The notes beneath the pieces are model-generated. The model did not search any database, was not told the origin of the DNA, and saw only the letters and a program-made list of their open reading frames with translations. The position numbers and the translations under genes are program-made. From Luteolibacter sp. Y139 (GTDB lineage: Bacteria; Verrucomicrobiota; Verrucomicrobiia; Verrucomicrobiales; Akkermansiaceae), in NCBI RefSeq assembly GCF_038066715.1, contig NZ_JBBUKT010000005.1:62001-126000 (forward strand): 64,000 nt of DNA, read 5' to 3'. Below, in pieces: positions 3,609-56,643 of this stretch. Position 1 is the stretch's first letter. Each line of letters opens with the position of its first letter.

Positions 3609-3611
3609 GGA

Positions 3612-3700
3612 AGAAGTGCCGGGTGATCAGTGATCGGTGATTTGAGCCGGATGGATCAGGAATAGTCAGCGGCTCCGCTTCGCTTCGCGAAGTTGTGGAA
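3612..3700. repeat. Interspersed repeat 'GAGCCGGATGGATCAGGAAT', copy 1
   Basis: GTGATC heptamers run into TGAGCCGGATGGATCAGG and then a CGCTTCGCTTCGCGAAG hairpin. Related copies are at 9428-9530, inside a coding region, and at 18602-18680, overlapping the 3' end of a gene. Confidence 0.75.
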
Positions 3701-3813
3701 AGGCACGGGTCTGGTGCGGGGAACGAAACGCGGAGAAGAGGAGATGTCTCGGGACGACAGAGGTGTCGTCCCTCCTCAGGGCGCTGGGGTGGTGCGCGCT
3801 GAAGGGGCGCGGG

Positions 3814-19590: not shown

Positions 19591-19635
19591 AAGGAGGAAA
19601 GGCATGGGGAATCTGGCACAGACGGAGGGGAAGGG

Positions 19636-40373: not shown

Positions 40374-43300
40374 ATGAGAAATTCATTCGCACTTTTATGT
40401 GCGGTCATCATGGCGTGCCTGACAGGGCTCGCCCATGCTTCCCACCTGAAGGGTGGGTCGGTCACCTGGAAGCGGGATACAACAGTAACCACCAGCTTCG
40501 TCGCGAAGGCGGAGGTGATCATCAACTTCGACTTGTCGGCAGCTTCAGGTCTGCTTGACCCGATCGAGCCGGATTCCACCCACATCCCGACGGTCAACAA
40601 TCACCCCTTCTACAAGGTGGGCGACATCGTGGGCTCGAGCGTGACCTTGGATTGGGGAGAAGGCCCGACGGTATCACTCACCGAATTCAAGGTGGTGGCG
40701 GTGGATCCGGCTGCCCAGATCGTATCGGCGAAAGCGGTGGAGTATGACCCGGACGGTGACGCCGATAACGATGGTATCCCGGATACCGAGGATATCGTCC
40801 CGAAACACGTCTATGGCTGGCCGACGGGTGTGACTTCCCGCGACATCACGGTTTCGGCTAGCGCCCGGGACGATTCGGAAGAGCTGGTCAATCGCACCAA
40901 CACACTGATGCGGATCCGCAGCCGGGTGACGAAGGCCGAGGGCAATACGCCGCCGGCATTCAATCCTGCGGATGCGACCCTGTTTGTGGTGCCCCAGGGG
41001 CTGCCCGCCGAACCGAAGGTGACCTTCGAGGTGCCAAAGGCATTCGATCCGGAGGCCGCCATGACGGTGCCGGAGGAGGAGCGTGACACGGTGAAGTACA
41101 GCTTCATCGAGCACGAGTCGGATGCCTCCGACATGGATACCGAGAACGACAAGTCGTGGGAGGAACTCCAGGGGATGACGATCACCGAGGATGGCCATAT
41201 CACGTGGGATACTTCGAATATCAGCCAGACGATCAAGACCTTCTCCGTCCAGGTGGTGGCGAAGGACTATGCGCCCGGCAGCACGACCCCGAAGTCGAGC
41301 ACGACGGTGGAGCTCCAGCTGTGGGTGAATGACACCACGCAGGAGGGCAAGCCGGAGATCGAGGTATTTCCGGCGAGCGAGAAGATTTACTTTCGTGAGG
41401 GCGAGAAGGGTAGTTTCAAGGTGATCGGATTCGATCATGGCGAGAATTCGCGCCTGGTGCTGCACCACACTCCGGCGGAACTCCCGCTGGGAGCCAGGCT
41501 GCTGCCGACCGCGGGATTCGCGGGGGCAGGGGAGGACAACGAGGGTGACCACCTGACGTGCACCTTCGATTGGACGCCGACGGAAGCGCAGGCGGGCCAG
41601 GAATATAAGATGAGCTTCCAGTTCGAGGACGACGATGAGCTCCTGTCGAAAGTGGTGGAGGTGACGGTGAAAGTGCTGGGTGAGACGGAGGACCCACCGC
41701 CGGCGGAGCCGTTGGTGCTGACGGTGAGCCAGACGAGCTTCACGGATGTGCCGCAGGGGACGACGATCACCTTCACGGCCACGGGCACCTGTGCTGCGAC
41801 GCCGGGTGTGCCGCTGGCGATCAACTCGCACAGTGAGATTCCGGAAGGGGCGACCTTCACGCCGCAGCTGCCAGCGAGGGCGGACAGCGATGTGGGTGTG
41901 GGGGTGGAAACGACCTTCTCGTGGCATACGGACTCGCATGATGCCACGCTGCCGGACGAGCCGATCGAGATCGAGCTGGTGCTGTCCGATGCGTATGGCC
42001 GGACGCAGACCCAGACGGTGAGCATCACGCTGCAGGATCCGCCGCCGGCGCCATTGATCACGCTGGCTGCGGGGACGACGACGCCGGTGACCGGGACGAT
42101 GTGGAATAGCCTGCTGGTGAACTTCGATGCGACCGGCGGCAGTCGCCAGCATCCGGGGCTGAACTTCCAGGCGCTGGATGGCGGTGAGCTGGTGAGGACG
42201 GAGATGGACTCGCCTGCTTCGAATCTCTTGTTCTGGCGCCTGACGCCGGGCCAGGTGCAGGCGGGGAGCGGAACGCTGCACGTGAAGGTGACGGATGAGT
42301 GGGGCGCGAATGCCGTGCTCAGCGTCCCCTACGTGGTGAGCAATCCGTCCGCGCCGGCATGGTGGGGTCCGGGAGCCGTTCTAACAGGTGGGGCTGCGGT
42401 GGATTTCAGCATGGCGAACCAAGGCCAGCTGAAGGCGATCGTGACGAGTGCCTTCACGAAGCTGAAGGTGGAATACCCCGATGCCGAAACGTCGACTGAG
42501 GAGGGGATCGCGCTGGCTGCGTATGTGAATGGCCTGGAAGCAGGGACCAACAACTACGAGCCGCTGCGGCAGGGTCAGCTGAAGCATGCGGCGAGCTTGT
42601 TTTACCAGGCGATCGGCAAGCTGCGGGGCAAGGAGGACATGGGCCTGCCGTGGCCAGAGGGCACGGATGACGTGAACAACTACGCGGCGGTGACGGTGGG
42701 ACAGGTGAAGATGATCTTCAGCTTCCCGCAGCCACTGGGCGGTGTGGTCTTCAATGAGCCGCCGACCTCGGTGGTGATCACGAGTCCAAAGAACGGGGCG
42801 ACGATCATCGGGGAGCAGGACATCGAGGTGAAGGCCTCGGCGACCGATCCTGACGAGGTGATCGACCGGGTGGACTTCTACGAGGGCGGTGTGCTGTTTG
42901 GCACCGATAGCTCGGCACCTTACTCGGCGGTCTTCCCGGCGGCAGCGCTGGGCGAGCATGTCTTCAAGGCGAAGGTGGTGGATAATCAGGGGCTGTCACT
43001 GACGTCCCGCCCGGTGACGGTGACGGTGGTGCCGGATGCACCGGACCTGGTGGAGATCAAGAGTCCGGCGGCGGATAGCCATTTCCCTGCCGGGCAGACG
43101 GTGCCGATCGAGGTGAAAGTGAACGATCCCGACAATAACCTGGTGCAGATGGAGCTGTACGAAGGGACGACCTTGATCGGGACGTATGGTGCCTCGGCTT
43201 CGGGGACCTACACGCTCTCTTGGCTGCAAGCCACGCCGGGGACGTATGATCTGAGCGTGCGGGTCATCGATGCGGAAGCGCAGGAGCTGACTTCCGCGCC

Positions 43301-44288
43301 GGTGGAGCTGGTGCGGGATTTCAATCCCGGTCCGGACGTGGTGGTGTACAGGCCGGCGCAGAACGACCGGACTCCAGCCTACAAGAAGACGGGGGCGAAC
43401 ACGAGCATCCCGACGGGGACGATCGAGATCGATGCGATGGTGACGGATGTCCACGGGGTGCAGTCCGTGCGCTTCTACGGCGGCCCGGCCGGTGGATCGC
43501 TGACGCTGCTGGAAGAGGACTACGGTGCGCCCTTCGCTTGCTCGTGGAGCGGCCTGTCGGCAGGAAGCTACGAGGTGCGGTTGGTGGCGACGGACATCTA
43601 TGGTGCCACGACCACGATCGACCGTGACGTGACGGTGGTGGCGCCGACGACGGTGGTGCTGCAGCAAGGCCTGAACCGGGTGACGCTGCTTCCGGATGCG
43701 ACGAATGGGTATACGGGAATGGCAGATACCTACATCCGCTCGAGCGTGCCGAACATGACGGCGGGCAGTGATCCGACCTTGCTCTTCGACGAGGGGCATC
43801 CGGCGAGCTACGGCCTGATGTATTGGCCGCTGGTACCGGGGCTGACCGGGATCCCGTCCACGGCGACGGTGCTGGATGCGAAGATCACTTTCGACGTGAT
43901 CAGCGCGGGCACCTGCCATTGCCAGGTTCTGCCGGTTAAAAAGGATTGGGATGAAACGGCTGCCACGTGGAATACCACCGGCCTGGCCTACGCTTGGGAT
44001 ACGCCGGGGGCAAAGGGCTCCGGTGATGCCGGCGGATACGGGCTGGCTTACATGGCGCACGGCAGCGCCGGCACGCGTGAGATGGGCTTCGAAGACGTGC
44101 GGCCGCTGCAAGCCTGGATTGGCGGGACGCCGGTCATCGACGGCATCAACTATGGTACGAACCAAGGCTTCAAGATCGATGTCTGGGGCGAAACCGTGAA
44201 GGATGAGGATCCCTTCGTGGTGAGCTCGTCGGAAGCCACGGACGTGACCAAGCGGCCGAAGCTGACGATCACGTATTATCAGGACTGA
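40374..44288 (+). CDS. Large secreted multidomain protein (GQLK, Ig-like, CBM96-like)
   Basis: 1304 residues. Signal peptide to about 22 (AHA), then 'SHLKGGSVTWK', typical of a beta-sandwich found in surface proteins. Cadherin/Ig-like regions with putative Ca-binding 'DPDGDADNDGIPD' occupy about 120-620. A verrucomicrobial GQLK domain (NQGQLK, RQGQLK, TVGQVK, about 680-790) follows, then three Ig-like domains with 'VDFYEGGVLFGTDSSAPYSA' signatures (about 795-1090), and a C-terminal DNRLRE/CBM96-like domain ('DTYIRSSVPNMTAGSDP', about 1115-1304). Likely displayed or released, possibly with the fibre protein upstream. A terminator follows. Confidence 0.82.
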   Translation: MRNSFALLCAVIMACLTGLAHASHLKGGSVTWKRDTTVTTSFVAKAEVIINFDLSAASGLLDPIEPDSTHIPTVNNHPFYKVGDIVGSSVTLDWGEGPTVSLTEFKVVAVDPAAQIVSAKAVEYDPDGDADNDGIPDTEDIVPKHVYGWPTGVTSRDITVSASARDDSEELVNRTNTLMRIRSRVTKAEGNTPPAFNPADATLFVVPQGLPAEPKVTFEVPKAFDPEAAMTVPEEERDTVKYSFIEHESDASDMDTENDKSWEELQGMTITEDGHITWDTSNISQTIKTFSVQVVAKDYAPGSTTPKSSTTVELQLWVNDTTQEGKPEIEVFPASEKIYFREGEKGSFKVIGFDHGENSRLVLHHTPAELPLGARLLPTAGFAGAGEDNEGDHLTCTFDWTPTEAQAGQEYKMSFQFEDDDELLSKVVEVTVKVLGETEDPPPAEPLVLTVSQTSFTDVPQGTTITFTATGTCAATPGVPLAINSHSEIPEGATFTPQLPARADSDVGVGVETTFSWHTDSHDATLPDEPIEIELVLSDAYGRTQTQTVSITLQDPPPAPLITLAAGTTTPVTGTMWNSLLVNFDATGGSRQHPGLNFQALDGGELVRTEMDSPASNLLFWRLTPGQVQAGSGTLHVKVTDEWGANAVLSVPYVVSNPSAPAWWGPGAVLTGGAAVDFSMANQGQLKAIVTSAFTKLKVEYPDAETSTEEGIALAAYVNGLEAGTNNYEPLRQGQLKHAASLFYQAIGKLRGKEDMGLPWPEGTDDVNNYAAVTVGQVKMIFSFPQPLGGVVFNEPPTSVVITSPKNGATIIGEQDIEVKASATDPDEVIDRVDFYEGGVLFGTDSSAPYSAVFPAAALGEHVFKAKVVDNQGLSLTSRPVTVTVVPDAPDLVEIKSPAADSHFPAGQTVPIEVKVNDPDNNLVQMELYEGTTLIGTYGASASGTYTLSWLQATPGTYDLSVRVIDAEAQELTSAPVELVRDFNPGPDVVVYRPAQNDRTPAYKKTGANTSIPTGTIEIDAMVTDVHGVQSVRFYGGPAGGSLTLLEEDYGAPFACSWSGLSAGSYEVRLVATDIYGATTTIDRDVTVVAPTTVVLQQGLNRVTLLPDATNGYTGMADTYIRSSVPNMTAGSDPTLLFDEGHPASYGLMYWPLVPGLTGIPSTATVLDAKITFDVISAGTCHCQVLPVKKDWDETAATWNTTGLAYAWDTPGAKGSGDAGGYGLAYMAHGSAGTREMGFEDVRPLQAWIGGTPVIDGINYGTNQGFKIDVWGETVKDEDPFVVSSSEATDVTKRPKLTITYYQD

Positions 44289-46257: not shown

Positions 46258-46773
46258 GGGGTGACAGGCTGGGTTTGATTCGCGCGGTGGAAGCAGCGTG
46301 TCACTGTGGGGATGGAGGGCGGGAGAGGGGATGAAGCGGGGGTGAAGAAGGGGTGAATGGGGAGGAGTGCCGAGTGATCGGTGATCAGTGATCAATGATC
46401 AGTGAAAGGCACCGGATTGGCGGGGGAACGAACCGCAGAGGCGCGGAGGTCGCGGAGGAAGCGCGGAGAAGGCGGGGGAAATGATGAACCGCCAAGACGC
46501 CAAGTGCGCCAAGTTTAGAAAGCGAAGGTGACCGGTGAAGGAGCTTCGGACCGGTGGAGGATTTGACCGCGGATGGCACGGATGTCGCGGATGGATGGAA
46601 GGCACTGGACTGGCGGGGGAACGAACCGCGGAGACGCAGAGGTCGTGGAGGAAGTGCGGAGAGGAAGTGAAGGGTTTGGGGGATGAGGGGAGATGCGGGT
46701 GAGATGATTTGGGGTGTGCGCTGTCGGCTTTTGGGGTTTGCCGTGCGGTGGGGGAGATGTTGTTTCTAGCAGG
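46258..46773. repeat. Spacer filled with degenerate repeats
   Basis: GTGATCGGTGATCAGTGATCAATGATCAG (46374-46402), 'ACCGCAGAGGCGCGGAGGTCG' (about 46430-46455), 'ACCGCCAAGACGCCAAGTGCG' and 'ACCGCGGATGGCACGGATGTCG' follow one another. No gene is seen before the family member at 46774. Confidence 0.6.
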
Positions 46774-47385
46774 ATGAACGGGAGTGATAGTGTGGGGGCT
46801 GATGGCGGTGGTGATGGTGACAGCGCTGGTGATGGGGTGGTGAGGGCGGAGCGGTGGGCGAAGCCGTGGTGGCGGTCGGTGGGGTTTTGGATCGGGGCCT
46901 GGGTGTTGGCGTTTTTGGTGTGGGCGTGGGTGGATTCGTTTTGGCATCAGTCGCAGGTGACGCATGGGGTGTGGGTGGAGTTTCCGGGGGCGGATGGGTC
47001 GGGGTTTGTGGGAGGGAAGTGGACGCTGCAGCAGGGGAGTCTGGTGATCAGCGATGGGAAGCCGATGGATGCGACGCCGGACTTGAGGTTGACGGGGGAG
47101 TGGCCGGTGTTTTCGCGCTGGAGTGAGGGGGAGTTCGGGCGCGGGGTGGAGGGGCTGTGGGGGATGAGGTGGGAGGATTGGAAGGTGTCGGAGAATGTGG
47201 GCGGCGGGCCGGTGCATCGCTGGGTGACGGTGCGGATGACGGACCGGTGGTGTCACTTCGGCTTCGTGGTGGCGGGGTATGTGGTGGTGTGGGTGAGTGT
47301 GATGTTCCTGTGGAGATGGTGGAGGTGGAGGAGGTTTGTGAGTGTTGAGTTTGCGGGGAAGGTGGCGGAGGAGAGTGCCGAGTGA
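46774..47385 (+). CDS. Two-transmembrane family, long type A variant
   Basis: 203 residues from MNGSDSVGADGG, chosen because the matching gene at 57002 starts at the equivalent ATG after the same leader (GGGGAGATGTTNTTTCTAG..GGATG). The longer cytoplasmic N-terminus ends RWAKPWWRSVGFWIG; TM1 about 38-56 (AWVLAFLVWAWVDSF). The ectodomain has 'GKWTLQQGSLVISDGKPM', similar to 57002-57616 and 51620-52096. TM2 about 160-180 (FGFVVAGYVVVWVSVMFLW). Confidence 0.75.
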   Translation: MNGSDSVGADGGGDGDSAGDGVVRAERWAKPWWRSVGFWIGAWVLAFLVWAWVDSFWHQSQVTHGVWVEFPGADGSGFVGGKWTLQQGSLVISDGKPMDATPDLRLTGEWPVFSRWSEGEFGRGVEGLWGMRWEDWKVSENVGGGPVHRWVTVRMTDRWCHFGFVVAGYVVVWVSVMFLWRWWRWRRFVSVEFAGKVAEESAE

Positions 47386-47606
47386 TCGGTGATCAGTGGA
47401 AAGGCATCGGTCTGGTGGAGGGAACGAACCGCGGAGGCGCTGAGGTCGCGGAGGAGATCGCGGAGAAAGGCAAGGGGGAGTAACCACGGAATACTCGGAA
47501 GGTTCGAGAGGGTGGATGAGGAGGGTGGATGAGGAGGGTGGATTGGGGGGCTGGGTGCGTGGATTGGGATTGTGGGGTGGGGAAGTTGATCTATCAGAGT
47601 GTATCG

Positions 47607-48053
47607 ATGATGAATGATGTGATGAGGCCGCGGGGGATTTTTTGGTGGAAGTCGTTTTGGCTGGGGCTGGCGATGCTGTGCTTCCTGGGGTGGGTGGGGG
47701 TGAGGTCGGTGGATCGACATGAGAGCGTGATCCGGCGCGGGCCGGGGACGAAGTTCGTGGAGGCGGGTTATTTCCAGGGGGTGTTCCGGGTGATCGATGG
47801 GAAGTCGGATCTGGAGCTGGATACCGCGAGGGTGAGGTGGGAGTCGCAGAAGTTCGGCAGAAGGATCGAGGAGGAGAAGCGGCGGTGGGCGCTGGGGGCG
47901 ACGACGTGGGAGGCCTATTTCACGCAGAAGTGGTGGATCGCGTTTCCGATGTGGGTGCTGCCGGCGGGGTGGGCGGTGTTGTGGGTGGGCCTGTTGGGGT
48001 GGCGGTGGCGGCGGGTGCGGAGGCATCTAACAGAAATGGAGGCGGTGGGGTGA
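47607..48053 (+). CDS. Two-transmembrane family, type A; first gene of coupled array
   Basis: 148 residues. MMNDVMRPRGIFWWKSFWLG; the ATG at 47622 (MRPRG) is the alternative family-like start. The ectodomain 'RGPGTKFVEAGYFQGVFRV' and 'RWESQKF' is paired with the protein at 54272-54718. TM2 about 115-135, with tail GWRWRRVRRHLTEMEAVG. Its TGA overlaps the next ATG (TGATG), and GGAGG inside the ME(A/V) codons is the next gene's ribosome-binding site. Confidence 0.8.
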   Translation: MMNDVMRPRGIFWWKSFWLGLAMLCFLGWVGVRSVDRHESVIRRGPGTKFVEAGYFQGVFRVIDGKSDLELDTARVRWESQKFGRRIEEEKRRWALGATTWEAYFTQKWWIAFPMWVLPAGWAVLWVGLLGWRWRRVRRHLTEMEAVG

Positions 48054-48484
48054 TGCGGCGGCCGGTTTATCGCTGGAAGGGTTTTTGGCTGGGAGTGCTG
48101 GTGGTGGCGTTCCTGGGGTGGGTGTGGGCGCGGTCGATGGGGCGGGATGAGGGGGTGTGGATTCATGGGGTGAGCCGGTGGAGCCACAATGCGAGCGTGC
48201 GCGATGGGTGGGTCGTGATCCTGGACAAGGATTCGCTGGTGTCTCCGAGGCCTCCCTTCGATGTGGCCTGGTATTCGCAGAGGCGCGGGGATTCTGCCTT
48301 CGACGCTGCGTCGGGCTGGTGGCTGGGATGGACTTTCTTCCAGCGTGACCGTTGGTTTTTCCGGTGGGCGGTGTTTCCGGTGTGGCTTCCGATTGCGGGG
48401 TTCTCCGCGCTGTGGGGCGGGTGGCTGGGGTGGAGGTGGAGAAGGGTGAGAAGTCGTCTAACAGAAATGGAGGTGGCGGGGTGA
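48053..48484 (+). CDS. Two-transmembrane family, type A; array gene 2
   Basis: 143 residues. MRRPVYRWKGFWLGVLVVAF, ectodomain starting RSMGRDEGVWIHGVSRWSHN (the 'MxRDEG' element is shared with 54272 and 58111), TM2 about 107-128, tail WRWRRVRSRLTEMEVAG. TGATG overlap at both ends. Confidence 0.82.
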   Translation: MRRPVYRWKGFWLGVLVVAFLGWVWARSMGRDEGVWIHGVSRWSHNASVRDGWVVILDKDSLVSPRPPFDVAWYSQRRGDSAFDAASGWWLGWTFFQRDRWFFRWAVFPVWLPIAGFSALWGGWLGWRWRRVRSRLTEMEVAG

Positions 48485-48963
48485 TGCGGGCGTTTTACAA
48501 GTCGCGGCTGCTTTGGTGCGGGGTGCCGGGGTTGGTGTTCCTGGTGTGGGCGTGGTGGGACTCGGGGAGGAATGCAGACGAGGTGAGTTGGAGGCAGGGG
48601 AGGCACAGTCACATCGTGATGGTGACGAGTGGTGCCGTGTGGTGGCAGGACACTCGGGACGAGGAGAGTAATTCGGTGGCGGAATTGGTCTATGTTGGTC
48701 GGGTGGCGATGGTGGATCGGGCGCGAGGGACGGTGAGGGAGCGCGGGTTCGAGTTTCCAGAGGCGTATTCGTGGACTTGTGAGGTCACTCCCTTTGGTGA
48801 GGGTGAGGAGGTGAGGACTTGTGAGTTGTGGGTGGCGCTGTGGTTGATGGTGCTGGGGTATGTGGGGGTGTGGTTGGGGGTGGTGTTTGCCTGGCGGTGG
48901 AGGAAGCGGCGGGTGATGAGGCGTCTAACAGATTTTGCGAAGGGAACGGAGGTGGTGGGGTGA
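48484..48963 (+). CDS. Two-transmembrane family, type B; array gene 3
   Basis: 159 residues. MRAFYKSRLLWCGVPGLVFL, AWWDSG at the end of TM1. Ectodomain begins RNADEVSWRQGRHSHIVMVT and contains 'RERGFEFPEAY', the type B F-D/E-F-P motif about 30 residues before TM2 (about 119-140). Tail WRKRRVMRRLTDFAKGTEVVG. TCTAACAG at 48924. Confidence 0.85.
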   Translation: MRAFYKSRLLWCGVPGLVFLVWAWWDSGRNADEVSWRQGRHSHIVMVTSGAVWWQDTRDEESNSVAELVYVGRVAMVDRARGTVRERGFEFPEAYSWTCEVTPFGEGEEVRTCELWVALWLMVLGYVGVWLGVVFAWRWRKRRVMRRLTDFAKGTEVVG

Positions 48964-49457
48964 TGCGGCCGTTCTACAAGGCGCGGTTGTTTTGGTGCGG
49001 GGTGCCGGGGTTGGTGTTTTTGTTGTGGGTGTGGTGGGACTCGGGTGGGTATGAGTCCCGCTTGAAGTGGAATCGTGGGTGGGGGTTCCGGGAGGTGCGG
49101 GTAGAGCGAGGCATGATGGGGTATATGCGCCTCATCGATCCCACGGCTGGGCCAGGTGTGAAGGGGGAGCTTTCGGCAGATCGATTGCCATTCCCGGAGG
49201 ATGACGGGACCGGTGGCTGGAAGGGGAGGGCGCGGAAGTTCGATTTTTTTCCGACGGCTTTTGAGAAGACGGTGATGGAGGTGGAGCCCAGCGCGGGGGT
49301 GATCGTGGATTGGGTGGATTCACGGCTGGCGCTGTGGGCGGCGGTGGCGGGGTATGGGGTGGTGTGGCTGGGGATGGTGTTTGCGTGGCAGTGGAGGAGG
49401 AGGCGGGTGATGAGGCGTCTAACAGATTTGGCGAAGGGAACGGAGGTGGCGGGGTGA
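48963..49457 (+). CDS. Two-transmembrane family, type B; array gene 4
   Basis: 164 residues. MRPFYKARLFWCGVPGLVFL, WWDSGG. Ectodomain 'YESRLKWNRGWGFREVRVER' and motif ARKFDFFPTAF. TM2 about 122-143 (LWAAVAGYGVVWLGMVFAW), tail QWRRRRVMRRLTDLAKGTEVAG. TGATG overlaps with both neighbours. Confidence 0.85.
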   Translation: MRPFYKARLFWCGVPGLVFLLWVWWDSGGYESRLKWNRGWGFREVRVERGMMGYMRLIDPTAGPGVKGELSADRLPFPEDDGTGGWKGRARKFDFFPTAFEKTVMEVEPSAGVIVDWVDSRLALWAAVAGYGVVWLGMVFAWQWRRRRVMRRLTDLAKGTEVAG

Positions 49458-49936
49458 TGCGGTCGTTTTACAGGTCGCGGTTGTTTTGGTGCGGGGTGCC
49501 GGGGTTGGTGTTCCTAATGTGGGTGTGGTGGGACTCGGGGCAGTATGAGTCCAATATGATATGGGATGGTGGAAACCGGGTGTATGATCTGCGGCTGAGT
49601 CGGGGATGCGTGGTCGGGGGAAGCGGGAGGGACAATTCGTTCGGGGTGGGTGGGGACGGATTCGGGACAGGACGATACCCACTGACGATGGAGCATGAGA
49701 TTCTCAGGATCCGGGACCGTCGGTTCGATTTTCCCCGGCCGTTCGAGTGGGACACCACCGTGAATGAGAATGGGAGATGGAGAACAGAGACTCGGCAGGT
49801 GAGCGTGGCGATGTGGGTGATGGTGGGATGCTATACCGTGGGCTGGCTGGGCGCGGTGTGGTGGTGGCAGCGGAGGAAGAGGCGGGTGATGGTGCTTCTA
49901 ACAGATTTGGCGAAGGGAACGGAGGTGGCGAGGTGA
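49457..49936 (+). CDS. Two-transmembrane family, type B; array gene 5
   Basis: 159 residues. MRSFYRSRLFWCGVPGLVFL, WWDSGQ. The ectodomain is Gly-rich ('GRDNSFGVGGDGFGTGRYPL') with motif DRRFDFPRPFEW. TM2 about 117-137, tail QRRKRRVMVLLTDLAKGTEVAR. Same coupling to the next gene. Confidence 0.85.
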   Translation: MRSFYRSRLFWCGVPGLVFLMWVWWDSGQYESNMIWDGGNRVYDLRLSRGCVVGGSGRDNSFGVGGDGFGTGRYPLTMEHEILRIRDRRFDFPRPFEWDTTVNENGRWRTETRQVSVAMWVMVGCYTVGWLGAVWWWQRRKRRVMVLLTDLAKGTEVAR

Positions 49937-50409
49937 TGCGGGCGTTTTACAAGTCGCGGTTGTTTTGGTGCGGGGTGCCGGGGTTGGTGTTTTTGCTGTG
50001 GGTGTGGTGGGATTCGGGGAGGCATTATTCCGAGGTGACGTGGTACCGGGGGAGCGAGGAGCGCGATGTGAGGGTGTATCGGGGAGTGGTGGAGTGGAGG
50101 AGTGTGGTGCAGCGTCTGTTCATTCCGGGGACGAAGCAGCTTTTCGTGGATCGCCATGAGATGGTGGAGGTGGACAAGAATGGCCTGGGGTTCACGAGGG
50201 AATGCGGGTTTGATCTTCCGGCGGGATTCCGGAGAGAAGAGAAGCCGGACGATGATCTGAAGATGACCTATGAGGCGGTGGAGGTGAGCGTGGCGCTGTG
50301 GTTGATCGCGGGGTGCTATGCGGCGATGTGGCTGGGGGCGGTGTTTGCCTGGCGGTGGAGGAAGCGGCGGGTGATGAGGCGTCTAACAGAAACGGAGGTG
50401 GTGGGGTGA
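49936..50409 (+). CDS. Two-transmembrane family, type B; array gene 6
   Basis: 157 residues. MRAFYKSRLFWCGVPGLVFL, WWDSGR. Ectodomain 'SEVTWYRGSEERDVRVYRGV' and motif ECGFDLPAGF. TM2 about 119-140 (LWLIAGCYAAMWLGAVFAW), tail WRKRRVMRRLTETEVVG. TGATG into the next gene. Confidence 0.85.
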   Translation: MRAFYKSRLFWCGVPGLVFLLWVWWDSGRHYSEVTWYRGSEERDVRVYRGVVEWRSVVQRLFIPGTKQLFVDRHEMVEVDKNGLGFTRECGFDLPAGFRREEKPDDDLKMTYEAVEVSVALWLIAGCYAAMWLGAVFAWRWRKRRVMRRLTETEVVG

Positions 50410-50870
50410 TGCGGGCGTTCTATAAGTCGCGGTTGTTTTGGTGCGGGGTGCCGGGGTTGGTGTTCCTGGTGTGGGCTTGGTGGGACTCGGGTGGGTATGA
50501 GTCGCAGGTGGGATGGATGGGAAAGGGCCGGGTGCGGGGTGTGCTGGTGAGCCGGGGTGCGGTGGGATGGGTCGATGGGGAGGACACGCTGATGAGAGCC
50601 CTGGGCGTGAAGGGCGGGCCGTGCTGGTCGCGGGAGGTCTTGTCCAAGTTCGACGAGAATGGCGGGCTGGCGCAGAGGGAGTGCGGGTTTGATGTGCGGC
50701 CGTTTTTCGAGAGAGGCGCGCTGGTGATCGACGAGGAGATGATCGTGGATGATGTGGACGGGCGGGTGGCGATGTGGGGAGTGATGGCTTGCTATGCGGT
50801 GATTTGGCTGGGGGCGGTGGGGGCGTGGCAGTGGAGGAAGAGGCGGGTGATGAAGGGGGAAGTTTGCTAG
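50409..50870 (+). CDS. Two-transmembrane family, type B; last gene of coupled array
   Basis: 153 residues. MRAFYKSRLFWCGVPGLVFL, WWDSGG. Ectodomain 'YESQVGWMGKGRVRGVLVSR', motif ECGFDVRPFF. TM2 about 121-142. The tail differs: QWRKRRVMKGEVC, then a stop followed by an AGTTTTC heptamer repeat. The usual RLTE..EVAG end is missing here but reappears just downstream in a 12-codon mini-ORF. Confidence 0.85.
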   Translation: MRAFYKSRLFWCGVPGLVFLVWAWWDSGGYESQVGWMGKGRVRGVLVSRGAVGWVDGEDTLMRALGVKGGPCWSREVLSKFDENGGLAQRECGFDVRPFFERGALVIDEEMIVDDVDGRVAMWGVMACYAVIWLGAVGAWQWRKRRVMKGEVC

Positions 50871-50906
50871 TTCCTAGTTTTTAGTTTTCAGTGAAGAGGA
50901 AAGGCA

Positions 50907-50942
50907 TGAGGCATTCTATGGAGATGGAGGTGGCGGGGTGAT
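50907..50942 (+). other. Mini-ORF MRHSMEMEVAG preserving the coupling signal
   Basis: ATG AGG CAT TCT ATG GAG ATG GAG GTG GCG GGG TGA, ending in TGATG with the next gene. It recreates the conserved C-terminal EMEVAG codons and their embedded GGAGGTGG ribosome-binding site without the rest of the gene. A near-identical mini-ORF (MRHSVEMEVAG) is at 52132-52168. Confidence 0.6.
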
Positions 50943-51459
50943 GCGGCTGTTCTATAAGTCGCGGTTGTTTTGGCTAGGGATGCCGGGGTTGGTGTTCTTG
51001 CTGTGGGTGTGGTGGGACTCGGGTGGGTGGGATTCGTCTGTGGTGCGGACGGTGCGGGGGAATGTCTTCCATGTGGTGAAGGTGAGAGGCGGGCTGGTGG
51101 AGTGGCAGCGTGACGAGTATCTGGGGACGGCGCCGATCTTGACGGGGAAGAGCTACTTCGACTTGCATGTCTATCGAACCGAGGTGGAGGAGCCTCCGCT
51201 TTCTGAGCGGGCGGGCCAGGTGGCGGGCAGGCGGTTCGATTTTCCGGCGGCCTACGAGAAGGAGAGGCAAACGTTGCGCGGTGAGCGAGCGGTGATGACG
51301 GAGCGGATCGATCTCGCGCGGGTGGCGCTGTGGGTGGTGGTGGCGGGGTATGGGATGGTGTGGCTGGGGGCGGTGAGTGCGTGGCAGTGGAGGAAGGCGC
51401 GGGTGATGAGGGAGCAATCATCAATCACCAATCCTCCAATCACCAATCAGAGTGCGTGA
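50941..51459 (+). CDS. Two-transmembrane family, type B
   Basis: 172 residues. MRLFYKSRLFWLGMPGLVFL, WWDSGG. The ectodomain 'VEWQRDEYLGTAPILTGKSY' is closely matched by the protein at 52655-53170; motif GRRFDFPAAYEK. TM2 about 122-143, tail QWRKARVMREQSSITN and PPITNQSA, the last ~14 residues being encoded by CAATCAC heptamer repeats. Confidence 0.83.
   Translation: MRLFYKSRLFWLGMPGLVFLLWVWWDSGGWDSSVVRTVRGNVFHVVKVRGGLVEWQRDEYLGTAPILTGKSYFDLHVYRTEVEEPPLSERAGQVAGRRFDFPAAYEKERQTLRGERAVMTERIDLARVALWVVVAGYGMVWLGAVSAWQWRKARVMREQSSITNPPITNQSA
51416..51450. repeat. Heptameric tandem repeat (CAATCAC type)
   Basis: CAATCAT CAATCAC CAATCCT CCAATCA CCAATCAG, with period seven, overlaps the 3' end of the gene at 50941. 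A related copy with 'GGAGTGCATGA' right flank is at 57576-57612 at the end of the gene at 57002. Confidence 0.65.
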
Positions 51460-51619
51460 GGAACGGGACGCTGGCGCGATGGGCGGAGTTCTTCCGGGAA
51501 GCGCTGCTCTCCCATGGTGGCGGTGCGGCGATGCGGGAGCCTTTTATTCTCCTCAAGCACTTCGATTGGTGATTGAGAGATTGATGATTGGTGATTTTCT
51601 CAAGAGGATCGCTTGAAGG

Positions 51620-52096
51620 ATGAGACGGCCGTTTTACAAGTCGCGGTTGTTTTGGTGCGGGGTGCCGGGACTGGTGTTTCTGGTGTGGGCGTGGGTGATC
51701 TCGTTTCATCATGTGCCGCGGGTGATGTCGTGGGTGAGTTCGGTGGGGCCGGGGATCAGCGCGGGATACAACGAGTGGGAGGCGCGGCTGCAGCAGGGGA
51801 AGGTGATTTTTCACCGGGGCCTTCTATTGTCGGCGCCGCCGGGGGTGAAGGCGCATGGGAGTGGGCCGGGCTTCGACTACAATGGATACCTGTATTTGCA
51901 GGATAAGCCGACGCAGTGGGGAAGGGATGTGACGGTGACAGGACTTCAGAGGCTGGGGAAGAAATGCTCGATCAGGGAGGTGGAGTGGTGGCTTTCGATG
52001 AGATTCGTGGTGGCGGGGTATGTGGGGGTGTGGCTGGGGATGGTGTGGTGGTGGCAGTGGAGGAAGAGGAGGGTGGTGGAGAAGGGAGTTTGCTAG
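51620..52096 (+). CDS. Two-transmembrane family, chimeric member
   Basis: 158 residues. The N-terminus is type B (MRRPFYKSRLFWCGVPGLVF) but WWDSG is replaced by VISFHH. The ectodomain and TM2 ('NEWEARLQQGKVIFHRG', then 'WWLSMRFVVAGYVGVWLGMV') resemble the long type A variants at 46774 and 57002. It therefore looks like a junction of a type B front and a long-type back. Tail QWRKRRVVEKGVC, as in the array's last gene. Confidence 0.8.
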   Translation: MRRPFYKSRLFWCGVPGLVFLVWAWVISFHHVPRVMSWVSSVGPGISAGYNEWEARLQQGKVIFHRGLLLSAPPGVKAHGSGPGFDYNGYLYLQDKPTQWGRDVTVTGLQRLGKKCSIREVEWWLSMRFVVAGYVGVWLGMVWWWQWRKRRVVEKGVC

Positions 52097-52131
52097 TCTG
52101 AAGTTTTCAGTTTTGAGTGAAGAGGAAAGGC

Positions 52132-52168
52132 ATGAGGCATTCTGTCGAGATGGAGGTGGCGGGGTGAT
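52132..52168 (+). other. Mini-ORF MRHSVEMEVAG preserving the coupling signal
   Basis: Second copy of the 12-codon mini-ORF, again after an AGTTTTC repeat and 'GGAAAGGC', and again ending TGATG into a type B gene. One coding difference (Val for Met) from the copy at 50907. Confidence 0.6.
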
Positions 52169-52655
52169 GCGGCCGTTCTATAAGTCGCGGTTGTTTTGGT
52201 GCGGGGTGCCGGGGTTGGTGTTCTTGCTGTGGGTGTGGTGGGACTCGGGTGGGTGTATTTCCTTTGTGCGATGGGGCCCGAGCGGCGATGAAAAGGGTGT
52301 GGAGGTGATGGTGGGGGATGTGGTCTGGCGGCGCACGAAGCAGTCCTGGAGCGGGTCGGCAGGAAGGAGGCCGATTTCCGTGGCTCGTATTGACTTGCGG
52401 GAGGATCCACTCAGCCGCACGGGGCCCGCGCGGGCGCGGCAGTTCGATCTTCAACCGCTTTTCCGGGTGTCGACGGAAGTGTATGGGAAGGAGCCGAGGG
52501 TGGTGCATGAGCGGCTTGTGAGAGCGGCGTTCTGGGGAGTCGTGGCGGGATATGTGGTGGTCTGGCTGGGGCTGGTGTTTGCGTGGCGGTGGAGGAAGCG
52601 GCGGGTGATGGGGCGTCTAACAGAGTCAGTGATGGAAACGGAGGTGGCGGGATGA
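52167..52655 (+). CDS. Two-transmembrane family, type B
   Basis: 162 residues. MRPFYKSRLFWCGVPGLVFL, WWDSGG. Ectodomain 'RWGPSGDEKGVEVMVGDVVW', motif ARQFDLQPLF. TM2 about 117-138 (FWGVVAGYVVVWLGLVFAW), tail WRKRRVMGRLTESVMETEVAG. Overlaps the next gene by TGATG. Confidence 0.85.
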   Translation: MRPFYKSRLFWCGVPGLVFLLWVWWDSGGCISFVRWGPSGDEKGVEVMVGDVVWRRTKQSWSGSAGRRPISVARIDLREDPLSRTGPARARQFDLQPLFRVSTEVYGKEPRVVHERLVRAAFWGVVAGYVVVWLGLVFAWRWRKRRVMGRLTESVMETEVAG

Positions 52656-53170
52656 TGCGGGCGTTTTACAAATCGCGGTTGTTCTGGTGCGGGGTGCCGG
52701 GGTTGGTGTTTTTGATTTGGGTGTGGTGGGATTCGGGTGGGTGGCATTCGTATGTGGTGCGGCCGGCGAGTGGGGGTGTGTTTGATTCGGTGATGGTGAG
52801 TCGCGGGCGGGTGGAGTGGCAGCGTAACGCGTATGTGGGGACGCCTCCGATTTTGACGGGGAAGAGCTACTTGGGCTTGCAGGCGTATCGGGCCGAGGTG
52901 GAGGAGAGTCCGTTCGCTATTTGGGTGGGCCGGTTGCCGGGCAGGGGGTTTGATTTTCCGGCGGCCTTCGGGTGGGAGAGTCAGACGTTGCTCGGTATGC
53001 GAGCGGAGATTACGGAGCGGATCTATTTCGCGTGGGTGGCGATGTGGGTGGTGGTGCTGTTGTATGTGGCGGTGTGGCTGGGGATGGTGTTTGGGTGGCG
53101 GTGGTGGAAGAGGCGGGTGATGGAGCGGGAGGCGAACGTTGAACATCGAACTCTGAACTCTGAAGGATGA
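52655..53170 (+). CDS. Two-transmembrane family, type B
   Basis: 171 residues. MRAFYKSRLFWCGVPGLVFL (an in-frame ATG also precedes at 52652). Ectodomain 'VEWQRNAYVGTPPILTGKSY' pairs with 50941-51459; motif GRGFDFPAAF. TM2 about 122-145. The tail EREANVEHRTLNSEG is encoded by GAACGTT/GAACTCT heptamers, which replaced the usual RLTE end. ATGA overlap with the next ORF. Confidence 0.83.
   Translation: MRAFYKSRLFWCGVPGLVFLIWVWWDSGGWHSYVVRPASGGVFDSVMVSRGRVEWQRNAYVGTPPILTGKSYLGLQAYRAEVEESPFAIWVGRLPGRGFDFPAAFGWESQTLLGMRAEITERIYFAWVAMWVVVLLYVAVWLGMVFGWRWWKRRVMEREANVEHRTLNSEG
53134..53161. repeat. Heptameric tandem repeat (GAACTCT type)
   Basis: GAACGTT GAACATC GAACTCT GAACTCT, followed by GAAGGATGA that forms the ribosome-binding site and start of the next gene. 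Coding for the last residues of the gene at 52655. Confidence 0.7.
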
Positions 53171-53685
53171 ATGGAGAGGCAGATGGGATGGATGGGGTGA
53201 AGGGAGGTCGCGCGGGGATGAGGCGGGCGTTTTGGCGTTCGCGGTTGTTTTGGTGCGGGGTGCCGGGGCTGGTGTTCTTGCTGTGGGTGTGGTGGGATTC
53301 GGGTGGGCATGTCTCTGGTGTCGCGTGGATTGGAAAGGAGAGGTCTTACCAGTTGTTCGTGGCGTCCGGCCGAGTGGGATTGGCTCAATATAGACATCCG
53401 GCAGGGATGGGCTTTAAGCCGCTTCCTACGATTCGATATGAATCAAAAGAGAGCGGTCGACCGAGGCGATGCCGCTTTGATGTAAAGCCCGCCTTCGAGG
53501 TGACAAAGAATTTGAATGTCGACCACGTGCTCTTCGGATATGAAGACGTTCTCGTGGCGATGTGGGTGATCGGGGGAGCTTACGCGATGGGATGGATGGG
53601 GTCCATCTGCTGGTGGCAGCAGAGAAAGAAGAAGGCGATGAAGCGTCTAACAGAAGCGGTGATGGAAGTGGAGGTGGCGCGGTGA
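53167..53685 (+). CDS. Two-transmembrane family, type B
   Basis: 172 residues from 53167; the family-like start MRRAFWRSRLFWCGVPG is at 53218 and may be the true one. WWDSGG. Ectodomain 'SYQLFVASGRVGLAQYRHPA', motif RCRFDVKPAF. TM2 about 130-150 is less typical (MWVIGGAYAMGWMGSICWW). Tail QQRKKKAMKRLTEAVMEVEVAR. GTGA overlap with the next gene. Confidence 0.8.
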   Translation: MNGEADGMDGVKGGRAGMRRAFWRSRLFWCGVPGLVFLLWVWWDSGGHVSGVAWIGKERSYQLFVASGRVGLAQYRHPAGMGFKPLPTIRYESKESGRPRRCRFDVKPAFEVTKNLNVDHVLFGYEDVLVAMWVIGGAYAMGWMGSICWWQQRKKKAMKRLTEAVMEVEVAR

Positions 53686-54152
53686 AGAGGCGGTTTTACA
53701 GGTCGCGGTTGTTTTGGTGCGGGGTGCCGGGGTTGGTGTTCTTGCTGTGGGTGTGGTGGGATTCGGGTGGGCATGATTCGTATGTGCTCAGGGGCAGTGG
53801 GATGGGGTACTATGATGTGCGGGTGAATCGGGGAGCGGTGCGGTGGAGTCGCATCAGGGAGAGTTCGGGAAGGAGCAGTTTCCCGAATGAGTTCTCGATG
53901 GGGCGAAGCTTGATCGCGGCGGATGACGGGAGCGGTCCATCGCCGAGGCGGAGGTGTCAGTTTGATGTGCCGCCGCTTTTCAAGTGGGAGAGGGATGCGA
54001 GCTTCCGGGCGCTGGGGTGGGAGAGCTTGAGCGCGGGGGTGGCGCTGTGGGGGATCACTGTCGCGTATGGAGTGATGTGGCTGGGCGCGGTGGGGTGGTG
54101 GGAGTGGAGGAAGGCGAATGCTGAAGATGGGGCGCTGAGCGTTGAGCGTTGA
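53682..54152 (+). CDS. Two-transmembrane family, type B (GTG start)
   Basis: 156 residues. Start GTG inside GTGA at 53682-53685: KRRFYRSRLFWCGVPGLVFL, WWDSGG. Ectodomain 'DSYVLRGSGMGYYDVRVNRG', motif RCQFDVPPLFKW. TM2 about 124-145, tail EWRKANAEDGALSVER encoded partly by GAGCGTT heptamers (54135-54165). Confidence 0.8.
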   Translation: MKRRFYRSRLFWCGVPGLVFLLWVWWDSGGHDSYVLRGSGMGYYDVRVNRGAVRWSRIRESSGRSSFPNEFSMGRSLIAADDGSGPSPRRRCQFDVPPLFKWERDASFRALGWESLSAGVALWGITVAYGVMWLGAVGWWEWRKANAEDGALSVER

Positions 54153-54271
54153 ACTTTGAATGAAGGATGACGTGGGGGGCGTATGCGCGGGAGTGAGCCT
54201 TTCTTTTGGGAGGTGAGGGGGAGTCGGGGTTTCCGGGTTATCTGTGTGTTTATCCGATTGGGCTTTGTTTT

Positions 54272-54718
54272 ATGATGACTTCACGACCGTGGTATCGTTG
54301 GAAATCGTTTTGGCTGGGGGTGGTGGTGCTGGGGTTTTTCGGGTGGGCGTGGATGCGGTCGATGACGCGGGACGAGGGGCTCTTGGTCCGTGGGCCGGGG
54401 ACGAGGCGGGTGGAGGCGGGAGTTTATGACGGGTGCTTCCGGGTGAGGAGATGGCAGCGGGATGTGGATACGGATCATCAGACGATCCGGTGGGAATCGA
54501 GGGTGCGAGAGAAGGGGCGGCTGGGACCGGGGGACGGACGGAAGTGGGCGCTGATGGGGGAGGAGGTGGTGAAGCCATGGGTGGACCAGTGGTGGATTTC
54601 GTTTCCGATGTGGGTGCCCTTCGCGGGGTGGCTGGGGGTGTGGGGTGCGTGGCTGGGGTGGCATGGGAGGCGGATGAGGCGTGGGGCAGGGGAGTGCCGA
54701 GTGATCGGTGATCAGTGA
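54272..54718 (+). CDS. Two-transmembrane family, type A
   Basis: 148 residues. MMTSRPWYRWKSFWLG, TM1 about 16-32. The ectodomain 'MTRDEGLLVRGPGTRRVEAG' pairs with 47607-48053. TM2 about 106-128 (FPMWVPFAGWLGVWGAWLGW), tail HGRRMRRGAGECRVIGDQ, where CRVIGDQ and the stop come from the GTGATCGGTGATCAG repeat. Confidence 0.8.
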   Translation: MMTSRPWYRWKSFWLGVVVLGFFGWAWMRSMTRDEGLLVRGPGTRRVEAGVYDGCFRVRRWQRDVDTDHQTIRWESRVREKGRLGPGDGRKWALMGEEVVKPWVDQWWISFPMWVPFAGWLGVWGAWLGWHGRRMRRGAGECRVIGDQ

Positions 54719-54785
54719 AAGGCGTCGGGGCTGGTGGAGGAACGAGATGCGGAGGCGTGGAGGAGGCGCGGAGGAGAGATGGAGG
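54690..54785. repeat. Composite GTGATC repeat overlapping a gene end
   Basis: GAGTGCCGAGTGATCGGTGATCAGTG begins inside the gene at 54272-54718 and is followed by 'GGCGTCGGGGCTGGTGGAGG' and a degenerate GGAGGCGTGG... segment, the same layout as at 47375-47470. Confidence 0.7.
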
Positions 54786-54928
54786 GAGCTAAGGAGGAAA
54801 GGGATGGCGGAGATTGGACCTTGTGGGGACGGGTGGTTTGTGGCAGGGTGATGGCGGCTGTTGATTCGATGTTCGGAGGCGGATGTTGGATGCCTTGGTT
54901 GCATGTCCGTTCCCCCGATGTTGTTTTC

Positions 54929-55423
54929 ATGATGCCGTGCCCTTTTTATCGTTCGCGGCTCTTTTGGTACGGGGTGCCGGGGCTGGTGTTTTTACTGTGG
55001 GTGTGGTGGGACTCGGGGGGATGGAATTCGCACGTTCGGTGGGAACGACCGGGAAAGGTGCGCTATGTGGGGGTGAGGATGGGTGGTGTGCAGTGGGGGA
55101 GTTCGACCTTGAGGGAGAATTACCCGCCCGGCCCGAGCGATTTCCCGGTGGTGCGTGGTGAATTGCCGGCGGAGGACGGGAGTGCTCCGGCGGGGAAGCG
55201 TGGGCGGCGGTTTGATTTTCCGCCGCTGATCAAGACGGTGGTGGAGGAGCGAAGCCGGGGTGGGATGGTCATGGATCTGGTGACGGGGGAGATCGCGCTG
55301 TGGGGAATCGTGGGGTGCCATGTGATGGTGTGGGTGGGGATGGTCTTCTGGTGGCAGCGGAGGAAGGGAAGGGTGACGGCGCGTCTAACAGATTCGACGG
55401 CGGGAATGGAGGTGGCGGGATGA
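54929..55423 (+). CDS. Two-transmembrane family, type B
   Basis: 164 residues from MMPCPFYRSRLFWYGVPGLV, WWDSGG. Ectodomain 'NSHVRWERPGKVRYVGVRMG', motif GRRFDFPPLI. TM2 about 127-147. Tail QRRKGRVTARLTDSTAGMEVAG with TCTAACAG at 55384 and TGATG overlap into the next gene. The frame is open upstream to 54734 through repeats. Confidence 0.82.
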   Translation: MMPCPFYRSRLFWYGVPGLVFLLWVWWDSGGWNSHVRWERPGKVRYVGVRMGGVQWGSSTLRENYPPGPSDFPVVRGELPAEDGSAPAGKRGRRFDFPPLIKTVVEERSRGGMVMDLVTGEIALWGIVGCHVMVWVGMVFWWQRRKGRVTARLTDSTAGMEVAG

Positions 55424-55965
55424 TGGCGATGCTGATGCGGCTTTTCCGGCGGGTGTGGATCTATTGGCCGGGGGTGCCGGGGATGGTGCTGCTGCTGGGG
55501 ATGTGGTGGGACTCGGGTGGGTATCATTCGTTGGTGGACGTCGGCCGCGGCGGGATGAACTACAAGCTGCAGCTGGAGCTGGGCTCGATCTGGTGGCAGC
55601 AGACGACGGAGTGGCGAAAGGAGGGTGTGGCGAAGGATCACTTCGACACGGGGCGGACCGCGCTGCAATCGGTGGGGGTGGCGGGACCGAGGGGAAGGCA
55701 GTTTGATTTGCCGCCTGCGTTGTCGCGGTATGCGACTTCATTCGGGGGTCAGCAGTTCAAGCGCGACATCGTGATCGTGCAGCTGGGGCTGTGGGCGATC
55801 GTGGCGGGGTATGTGGCGCTGTGGGCGGTGCTGGTTTTCGCGTGGCATGCGCGGAAGAGGCGGATGAAGGCGAACGTGGAGCGCGGAGCCTTGAATCGAA
55901 ATGCGGTGGCGGGTGATCAGTCGTCATTGATCCGTGGAGTGGCCGCGGGATGGTGGAGGTTTTGA
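55423..55965 (+). CDS. Two-transmembrane family, type B, diverged N-terminus
   Basis: 180 residues. MAMLMRLFRRVWIYWPGVPGMVLL: the usual SRLFWCGVPG is altered to RVWIYWPGVPG, while MWWDSGGY is kept. Ectodomain 'LQLELGSIWWQQTTEWRKEG', motif GRQFDLPPAL. TM2 about 126-146 (LGLWAIVAGYVALWAVLVFAW). A long tail (HARKRRMKANVERGALNRNA...) extends through repeat sequence to TGA 55965. Confidence 0.78.
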   Translation: MAMLMRLFRRVWIYWPGVPGMVLLLGMWWDSGGYHSLVDVGRGGMNYKLQLELGSIWWQQTTEWRKEGVAKDHFDTGRTALQSVGVAGPRGRQFDLPPALSRYATSFGGQQFKRDIVIVQLGLWAIVAGYVALWAVLVFAWHARKRRMKANVERGALNRNAVAGDQSSLIRGVAAGWWRF

Positions 55966-56094
55966 TGGCGGGATACGTGGAGGGGGAAGTGGTGGGGATG
56001 AGATGGATGAGGAGCGGGTGAAGTGAGTGTGAGGAAGTGATGAAGGGGTGGATCCTCATTGGCGGGCGCGGGTGTGGACGAGTAGGGTGGTGAG

Positions 56095-56643
56095 ATGGGT
56101 TCCGAGTGGGCCTGGCTTTTGATGAGCGTGCTTTCCACCGTGATCACCTTGTGGGACTTCGCCGTGGCTTTGTTTCCGGCGGTGGGATGGATGGTGGTGG
56201 TGTGGCTGATGTGGCGGTGCTCGAGGGCGGAGGAGCCGATGGCGAGTTTCAGGAGGTGGCTGTCGACGATGGTGATCGTGGCGGGTGTCTCGACGGCGGA
56301 GGGGATGTGGGTGCGGCGAGATTGGGCGCAGGCGGAGGAGCACGAGATGAGGCGCAGCGCGAGGGATGCGATGAAGCAGATCGAGCTGGCGGTGGATTCT
56401 TACTATTGGGCTCGCGGCGAGTGGCCGGCGGGTGGGAATCGGGAGGTGATGGCGACGCTGCTGAAGGGGCGGGAGGATGGCGGTGGTGGGTATTTGAATC
56501 GGGGGAATGTGAGGCTGGGGGCGGATGGGTCGGCGCTGGATCCGTGGCGGCGGCCGTATTTGATGGAGGTGCGAGGGGAGAAGATGAGGGTGTGGTCGGC
56601 GGGGAAGGATGGGGTGTCGGGGACGGGGGACGATGTTTTCTAA
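56095..56643 (+). CDS. Membrane protein with GspG-like pseudopilin C-terminal domain
   Basis: 182 residues. Two hydrophobic spans at the N-terminus (about 8-40 and 59-75), then a helical segment 'RRSARDAMKQIELAVDSYYW' and the C-terminal 'DPWRRPYLMEVRGEKMRVWS' with 'GKDGVSGTGDDVF', the Ca-loop pattern of major type II secretion pseudopilins. A standard prepilin peptidase site is not evident, and the extra membrane span is unusual. Its stop TAA lies inside TCTAACAG (56639-56646). Confidence 0.72.
   Translation: MGSEWAWLLMSVLSTVITLWDFAVALFPAVGWMVVVWLMWRCSRAEEPMASFRRWLSTMVIVAGVSTAEGMWVRRDWAQAEEHEMRRSARDAMKQIELAVDSYYWARGEWPAGGNREVMATLLKGREDGGGGYLNRGNVRLGADGSALDPWRRPYLMEVRGEKMRVWSAGKDGVSGTGDDVF

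Follow-up and report, generated by a model that had tools for sequence, protein, structure and literature searches.

Why do neighbouring proteins encoded by a tandem array of paralogous genes end in similar residues? This C-terminal sequence could be kept for the protein itself, or it could be kept because its codons form the translation start signal of the next gene. We addressed this question for an array in the 7.1-Mb genome of Luteolibacter sp. Y139, located in a stretch of 64,000 nucleotides that we refer to as the window (positions 62001–126000 of contig NZ_JBBUKT010000005.1, here called C5). Among named records, its thymidine phosphorylase is closest to those of a Verrucomicrobiaceae MAG (90%), Haloferula sp. 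BvORR071 (89%) and Luteolibacter marinus (87%), which suggests a bacterium of the Luteolibacter/Haloferula type. A description made from the DNA letters alone (the sequence-only reading) had noted seven overlapping genes at 47607–50870 and had proposed the second of these answers. We observed a motif whose geometry is constant, which is conserved, which is linked to a following coupled copy and which survives at places where no family gene encodes it. The explanation that we favour, and that we hold to be fairly probable, is termination–reinitiation coupling in a tandem array of 16 paralogues, restricted to the genus so far, whose tail codons are kept as the initiation region of the next gene.

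The seven open reading frames at the beginning of the array lie on the plus strand. They start at 47607 (or at 47622, as several in-frame ATGs are present), 48053, 48484, 48963, 49457, 49936 and 50409, and the run ends at 50870. All six junctions between them are one-base TGATG overlaps, as the sequence-only reading had described. It had further claimed that the tail codons for M-E-V-A-G contain a Shine–Dalgarno (SD) motif about ten bases before the next ATG. The SD part of this claim stands: GGAGG, a 10-base spacer and ATG are found at all six junctions (48038–48053, 48469–48484, 48948–48963, 49442–49457, 49921–49936 and 50394–50409), with the block GGAGGTGG occurring literally at the last five and as the variant GGAGGCGG at the first. 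The literal residues M-E-V-A-G are found in one tail of the six, that of the copy at 48053. The six tails read, in order, EAVG, EVAG, EVVG, EVAG, EVAR and EVVG, and all of them match the pattern E-[VA]-[AV]-[GR]. In their longer form, the coupled copies 1 (47607–48053) and 2 (48053–48484) end in TEMEAVG and TEMEVAG before the stop codon, copies 3 (48484–48963), 4 (48963–49457) and 5 (49457–49936) in GTEVVG, GTEVAG and GTEVAR, and copy 6 (49936–50409) in ETEVVG. The seventh gene (50409–50870) is the last of the coupled run; it is uncoupled at its own end, and its tail reads KGEVC. A search with the pattern GGAGG-N5-RTGATG was discarded, as its spacing was wrong and its sole match was an unrelated site.

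With a profile search, we found that the array extends to 55965 and comprises 16 copies on the plus strand, arranged in several coupled runs; further family members lie elsewhere in the window. A downstream copy was counted as coupled if the gap was between -12 and +12 bases, a script placed each family start at a start codon close to where the profile begins, and copies lacking one were excluded from the coupling and tail counts. Nine of the 16 copies have a coupled downstream copy and seven do not. The overlaps comprise seven of -1, one of -4 (GTGA) and one that was scored as +11 and becomes -1 (TGATG) if the ATG at 55423 is used. The tail pattern E[VA][AV][GR] occurs in 9/9 coupled array copies versus 0/7 of the other array copies. 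Outside the array, where the family set consists of 158 copies, it was found in none of the 29 coupled and none of the 129 uncoupled copies. EVAG tails in copies that are not followed by a coupled gene, which had been named as an observation that would speak against a start signal, were thus seen in 0 of 136 uncoupled copies. This distribution also bears on the idea that the C-terminal E-V-A-G residues have a function in the protein, for example as a localisation or interaction tag. The residues do recur in nine copies; they are, however, absent from 7/16 array copies and from all 158 other family members examined, and nonsynonymous changes of the tail (A/V, G/R) are tolerated. We consider such a protein function very improbable.

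The sequence-only reading had also suggested comparing nonsynonymous and synonymous change in the tail codons. For the last five codons of the nine tails, the proportion of nonsynonymous differences (pN, 0.172) exceeds that of synonymous differences (pS, 0.104), in line with a constraint on the nucleotides, and in the constrained N-terminal helix pN/pS is 0.35 (12 array copies). In an alignment of the 12 block-bearing starts, anchored at the start codon and divided into 33 five-base bins, identity is highest at GGAGG (97%). The spacer and start reach 88–90%, the 20 bases ahead of GGAGG 43–68% and the first 90 coding bases 62–90%. Furthermore, the block is kept ahead of the copies at 50941, 52167 and 53218, each of which is separated by 47–70 bases from the end of the family gene before it. 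Ahead of 53218, GGAGG and the same spacing are kept in a leader that has otherwise diverged. A related block on another C5 stretch (L023) stands ahead of a copy that lies 37 bases beyond the end of its upstream neighbour.

The block also stands out in its predicted pairing with the ribosomal anti-SD. At 11 block-bearing starts, the duplex energy is -11.7 to -14.0 kcal/mol and ranks at 0.00–0.05 among 60 random local windows each. For the twelfth, a score was obtained solely for the alternative start 55435, with a weak energy (-4.5, rank 0.80). The word GGATCACCTCCTTT, which we take to be the one expected at the 3' end of the 16S rRNA, occurs once in the genome. Taken together, the link between tail and coupling, the conservation of GGAGG, the excess of pN over pS, the block outside family genes and the duplex energy argue that the C-terminal sequence is kept as the translation signal of the next copy, although some of the pattern may stem from common descent or from exchange. 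The interpretation of the sequence-only reading is thus partly supported: at the level of sequence, the tail nucleotides behave as the leader of the next gene and not as a protein motif.

A number of observations, which we gather here and in the next two paragraphs, weigh against a start signal in the tail. As the copies are homologous, the array starts and the junction counts are not independent events. Conservation is not limited to GGAGG but forms a plateau of 20 bases from -15 to +4 (0.88–0.97), a pattern also expected from shared descent. GAG, GTG and GCG make up 82–90% of their codons here, and the argument from silent changes is weak for this reason. The main alternative is that descent and gene conversion suffice: the repeat unit would be the junction, and unequal exchange or conversion would keep the tail young or homogenised without selection. 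In agreement with this, pS in the array is lower at both helix ends (0.29 and 0.32) than in the middle (0.52–0.55). Among 14 close pairs, synonymous divergence (dS) of the N-terminal part is below that of the middle in 11, and C-terminal dS is below it in seven, strongly so in three. The strong cases of younger ends are in other arrays (0.02 versus 2.64 at L046, 0.15 versus 1.07 at L047 and 0.10 versus 0.69 at L044). In addition, two junctions formed by short reading frames ahead of copies 8 and 10 resemble duplicates of each other, and across the aligned starts the entire block from -15 to +4 is conserved beyond GGAGG. On the other hand, C-terminal dS is not below that of the middle in the remaining seven of the 14 pairs, the ends of the closest pair of the array (50941/52655) are not younger than its middle (dS 0.55, 0.16 and 0.33), and the leader of 53218, despite its strong divergence, retains GGAGG at the same spacing. 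We thus regard descent and conversion without selection as a somewhat unlikely explanation for the array.

A second alternative is that composition alone is responsible, so that the G-rich coding strand makes the GGAGG in the tail incidental and coupling occurs by the overlap only. GC skew across the array is +0.44 to +0.52, which favours G-rich words, and 71 GGAGG are found within 8.4 kb. Coupled copies encoded on a C-rich strand lack an SD motif, and their tails read, for example, LTAPPP. For the use of SD motifs elsewhere, we analysed a background sample of 494 kb of the 7.1 Mb, partly picked around family matches, in which genes were called by a simple hexamer script that recovered 57/80 family genes and whose start positions are approximate; five loci covered by longer stretches (L001, L002, L003, L018 and L019) were left out of the counts. 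A motif was considered strong if its duplex energy with the anti-SD was -8 or lower. This threshold was reached by a fraction of 0.14 of the called non-family starts in G-rich, 0.00 in C-rich and 0.03 in flat surroundings, compared with 0.20, 0.02 and 0.05 of the controls. The called starts of this genome are SD-poor, and Akkermansia is reported to be SD-scarce with an intact CCUCC (PMC10783764). Outside the array there are 29 coupled family junctions; 16 of them overlap by -4, and only five have an energy of -8 or lower. In flat or C-rich surroundings, a strong SD is present at 1 of 17 coupled junctions. As the other 16 lack it, what is general is the overlap rather than the SD; a strong SD characterises this array and a few other junctions. 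What composition does not account for is position: GGAGG lies at -22 to -5 of 11/15 array starts versus 28/197 other ATGs of the same stretch, the 10-base spacing is repeated, and the 11 starts rank at 0.00–0.05 in their local windows. Composition alone is therefore an improbable explanation. The skew itself is regional: it amounts to +0.26 to +0.40 per stretch of 14–64 kb, and locally to up to about +0.5, in C5 (the window plus six stretches near it) and at the end of contig C4, and the other sampled stretches range from -0.16 to +0.16. In the skewed region of C5 and C4, plus-strand genes are G-rich and minus-strand genes are C-rich.

The signals for transcription are mixed. A consensus scan yielded 18 terminator-like sites compared to 6.5 expected, 14 of which fall within the first 60 bases of array copies. 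Repetition of the coding sequence may have produced these sites incidentally; if they are real, they argue against a single long transcript. A consensus scan for sigma-70-like promoters at 46500–56200 found none compared to 1.7 expected, which does not settle co-transcription. Because of the terminator-like sites, and because conservation extends over a plateau of 20 bases instead of peaking over five, we slightly lowered our confidence in a translation signal and raised that in descent and conversion.

Despite these points, termination–reinitiation with an SD motif inside the upstream gene, in its ordinary form, is the most likely mechanism. The array would form operon-like runs in which the stop codon of one copy overlaps the start codon of the next (TGATG, once GTGA). 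A ribosome that ends one copy would then probably reinitiate immediately on the next one, using an initiation region in the tail that would consist of GGAGG, the 10-base spacer and the overlapping start. The E-V-A-G-like residues may, accordingly to this proposal, be mostly a by-product of the signal in the DNA. Co-transcription of the runs, reinitiation and a contribution of the SD motif to it are inferred. The array would be a clear natural case in which the last codons of a protein are apparently set by the start signal of the next gene, and it comes with built-in controls, namely the interrupted junctions and the three leaders outside family genes. Since the array is locally rich in SD motifs and the called starts of the genome have few of them, it could reveal whether SD-poor bacteria use such motifs mainly for reinitiation.

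Near-equal expression of all array members, which the sequence-only reading had considered possible, is not supported: the array is broken at six places by gaps of 47–213 bases, and four of the 16 array starts have no motif. Copies 8 (50941–51459) and 11 (52655–53170) have uncoupled tails. Copy 9 (51620–52096) has no GGAGG block ahead of it and ends in KGVC, and copy 10 (52167–52655) ends in ETEVAG and is TGATG-coupled. Copy 12 (53218–53685) ends in VEVAR, has the diverged leader with GGAGG and the 10-base spacer at 53203–53218, and a further in-frame ATG is present at 53167. Copy 13 (53682–54152) starts with GTG and has the 4-base overlap (GTGA) with copy 12. Copy 14 (54275–54718) lacks a GGAGG block, copy 15 (54932–55423) ends in GMEVAG and overlaps by TGATG with the ATG at 55423, and copy 16 spans 55423–55965, with a script-assigned start at 55435. 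All of these copies are on the plus strand.

Two of the blocks outside family genes are part of 11-codon mini open reading frames on the plus strand. The first encodes MRHSMEMEVAG (50906–50941), has a TGATG overlap with copy 8 and contains the GGAGG block 50926–50941. The second encodes MRHSVEMEVAG (52132–52167), likewise overlaps by TGATG with the copy that follows it, copy 10, and contains the same block at 52152–52167. These two resemble duplicates of one another and are possibly what is left of an array member that collapsed. A third one, at 19604–19639, has a TGATG overlap and a similar block ahead of the family gene at 19639. Mini-frame leaders as a general rule of the family were rejected, as a -1 stop overlap is found at 14/135 uncoupled family starts versus 117/490 internal ATGs. 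On stretch L023, a family copy at 3524–3933 is possibly frameshifted near its end; another open frame reaches the next start and has a similar GGAGG block.

Repeats are found at the ends of several copies. A dispersed repeat word, TTTGCTAG, is found in the gaps that follow 50870 and 52096. It is the source of the stop codon there, including that of copy 7, and was seen at 15 further sites in the C5 stretches read. A dispersed repeat starting with TTTGCTAGTTTTCAG occurs in the window at 19554, 50863, 52089, 58075 and 58526 as well as in other C5 stretches, and gives the stop codon and the last residues (VC) to four family genes of the window. By eye, the tails of the copies at 50941 and 52655 resemble repeat words. 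Directly after the array, at 56095–56640, lies a gene for a T2SSG protein (type II secretion pseudopilin-like, E-value 5e-7), and ahead of the array region, at 40374–44285, a gene for a protein of 1304 residues with bacterial Ig (Big_7) domains.

What kind of protein is produced in such runs? The family has at least 81 matches in its own genome, a lower bound as 98 of 219 first-look candidates were scored. It is present in 17/18 members of the genus (own genome included) and in 0/20 genomes outside of it. A contig scan with the family alignment found no relative in 30 stretches; here, the pattern used is specific to the array, and the absence means little. According to a structure model of copy 6, based on 31 window sequences (predicted local distance difference test (pLDDT) 92, predicted template modelling score (pTM) 0.79), these are predicted membrane-type proteins with two helices flanking a variable beta domain: a helix at residues 8–26, the beta domain at 30–120 and a long second helix at 121–156. 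As the helices are hydrophobic and flanked by basic residues, the model suggests that the beta domain is outside the cytoplasm. The 31 window members had no match at E-values of 1e-3 or lower (best Pfam 0.0013, to DUF6338 for one member; best NCBIfam 0.0093; best PADLOC 0.048), and a sequence search of the Protein Data Bank (PDB) gave no match at the same threshold. DUF6232 (PF19744) reached at best 14.8 bits among six window proteins, below its gathering score of 27.4, and matched 2/31 members at E-values of 0.1 or lower. In fold comparisons, the best Foldseek E-value was 0.1 and a second look gave a best Z of 3.7 over 54 residues, with no chain prominent.

The middle domain has diverged in 12 array copies, with pN and pS both at 0.52–0.59. 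Diversifying selection on this domain was considered and rejected: the ratio of nonsynonymous to synonymous divergence (dN/dS) is 1.67 for the pair 50941/52655 and 0.31–1.25 for other close pairs where defined. A variable middle domain on a conserved N-terminal helix would also fit coupled copies that form a membrane hetero-oligomer, in which coupling is selected for a fixed ratio of subunits by co-translation. Such a complex is possible, as short overlaps are linked with subunits of heteromeric complexes in a 2023 paper (PMC10666635). However, the runs differ in length and are interrupted, and most family members stand alone (129 uncoupled versus 29 coupled outside the array). To stoichiometric co-translation we thus assign a low probability.

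In addition to the SD block, a second short word recurs at the junctions. The octamer TCTAACAG is present in all nine coupled array tails, first at 48026–48033 and then starting at 48457, 48924, 49418, 49897, 50382, 52616, 53646 and 55384, always on the plus strand. The word is not confined to the array: 714 copies are found in the genome compared to 184 of the backward control. Among the 8-mers of the C5 sample, it has the highest z-score for over-representation (89 versus 1.5 expected under a third-order model), and 16 copies versus 0.7 expected were found in the sample of other contigs. Of the 532 CTAA tetramers of the sample, 231 fall in YCTAACAR. The octamer exceeds its backward control in 10/18 genus members, by 1.1- to 5.2-fold (with, for example, 629, 581, 375, 354 and 331 copies), and in 1/20 genomes outside the genus (G018); six genomes (G001, G002, G013, G014, G016 and G017) have 4–34 copies. 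Within 265 non-family genes it is evenly spread, with 36 sense and 33 antisense copies, and 29/121 copies lie between called genes, near the intergenic share of 23%. In 78 family genes of the own genome, 18 occurrences fall within the terminal 60 bases and one in 31.8 kb of gene bodies; in 96 family members from other genomes, two occurrences are in tails and none in 39.9 kb of bodies.

We considered several origins for this octamer. An insertion scar is not favoured: there is no clear target-site duplication (2, 3 and 4 bases in 6, 2 and 3 of 121 cases versus about 8.8, 2.4 and 0.6 expected), and orthologues of thymidine phosphorylase, a core gene, carry substitutions at the same codons, so that the word arises there by base substitutions at leucine codons. 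An integron-type inverted pair was not found within 60 bases. It is possible that TCTAACAG has a role at the DNA level, for example in uptake or recombination, which implies no function in the array. One could further propose that each coupled junction combines the SD block with this word, which is dispersed in its own and about half of the related genomes, and that the word guides exchange, such that the ends stay alike and the middle is swapped or diverges; we judge this to be quite unlikely. Among the papers searched, none mentions TCTAACAG, and those listed for Luteolibacter genomes and paralogs contained nothing relevant; for DNA uptake sequences in Verrucomicrobia, one review was found. 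To our knowledge, the genus that carries the octamer is outside the groups where uptake sequences are known, and the word would be a new example of a signal dispersed over genomes.

How does the locus compare to known systems? Dispersed over-represented words include the DNA uptake sequences (PMC3630211, PMC1939737) and HIP1 (PMC4390886). TCTAACAG is similar to them in being short and over-represented, with hundreds of dispersed copies within and between genes and in both orientations. In contrast to them, it is non-palindromic and denser in the strongly skewed contig than elsewhere.

For the junctions, the closest comparison is to overlapping gene pairs. Huber et al. (2019, PMC6728339) report that, in 20/24 prokaryote groups, the upstream gene of about half of the overlapping pairs or more contains an SD motif at its 3' end, and that coupling was observed in 13/14 tested pairs. 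Removal of the SD in five Escherichia coli pairs reduced reinitiation by 60–90% in three, abolished it in one and left one unaffected. The array resembles these pairs, with stop and start overlapping by 1 or 4 bases and with GGAGG, an upstream SD being a common and not an essential feature of such genes, in 9/9 coupled tails. It is unlike them in that one motif is repeated through tandem paralogues in a genome that is otherwise SD-poor at called starts, and in that coupling is here a prediction. With SD-scarce genomes such as that of Akkermansia, which also belongs to the Verrucomicrobiae (PMC10783764), this genome shares few strong SD motifs at called starts together with the presence of a CCTCC word, whereas the array is a local exception with strong motifs. 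We conclude that the array most likely represents a largely ordinary form of bacterial translational coupling.

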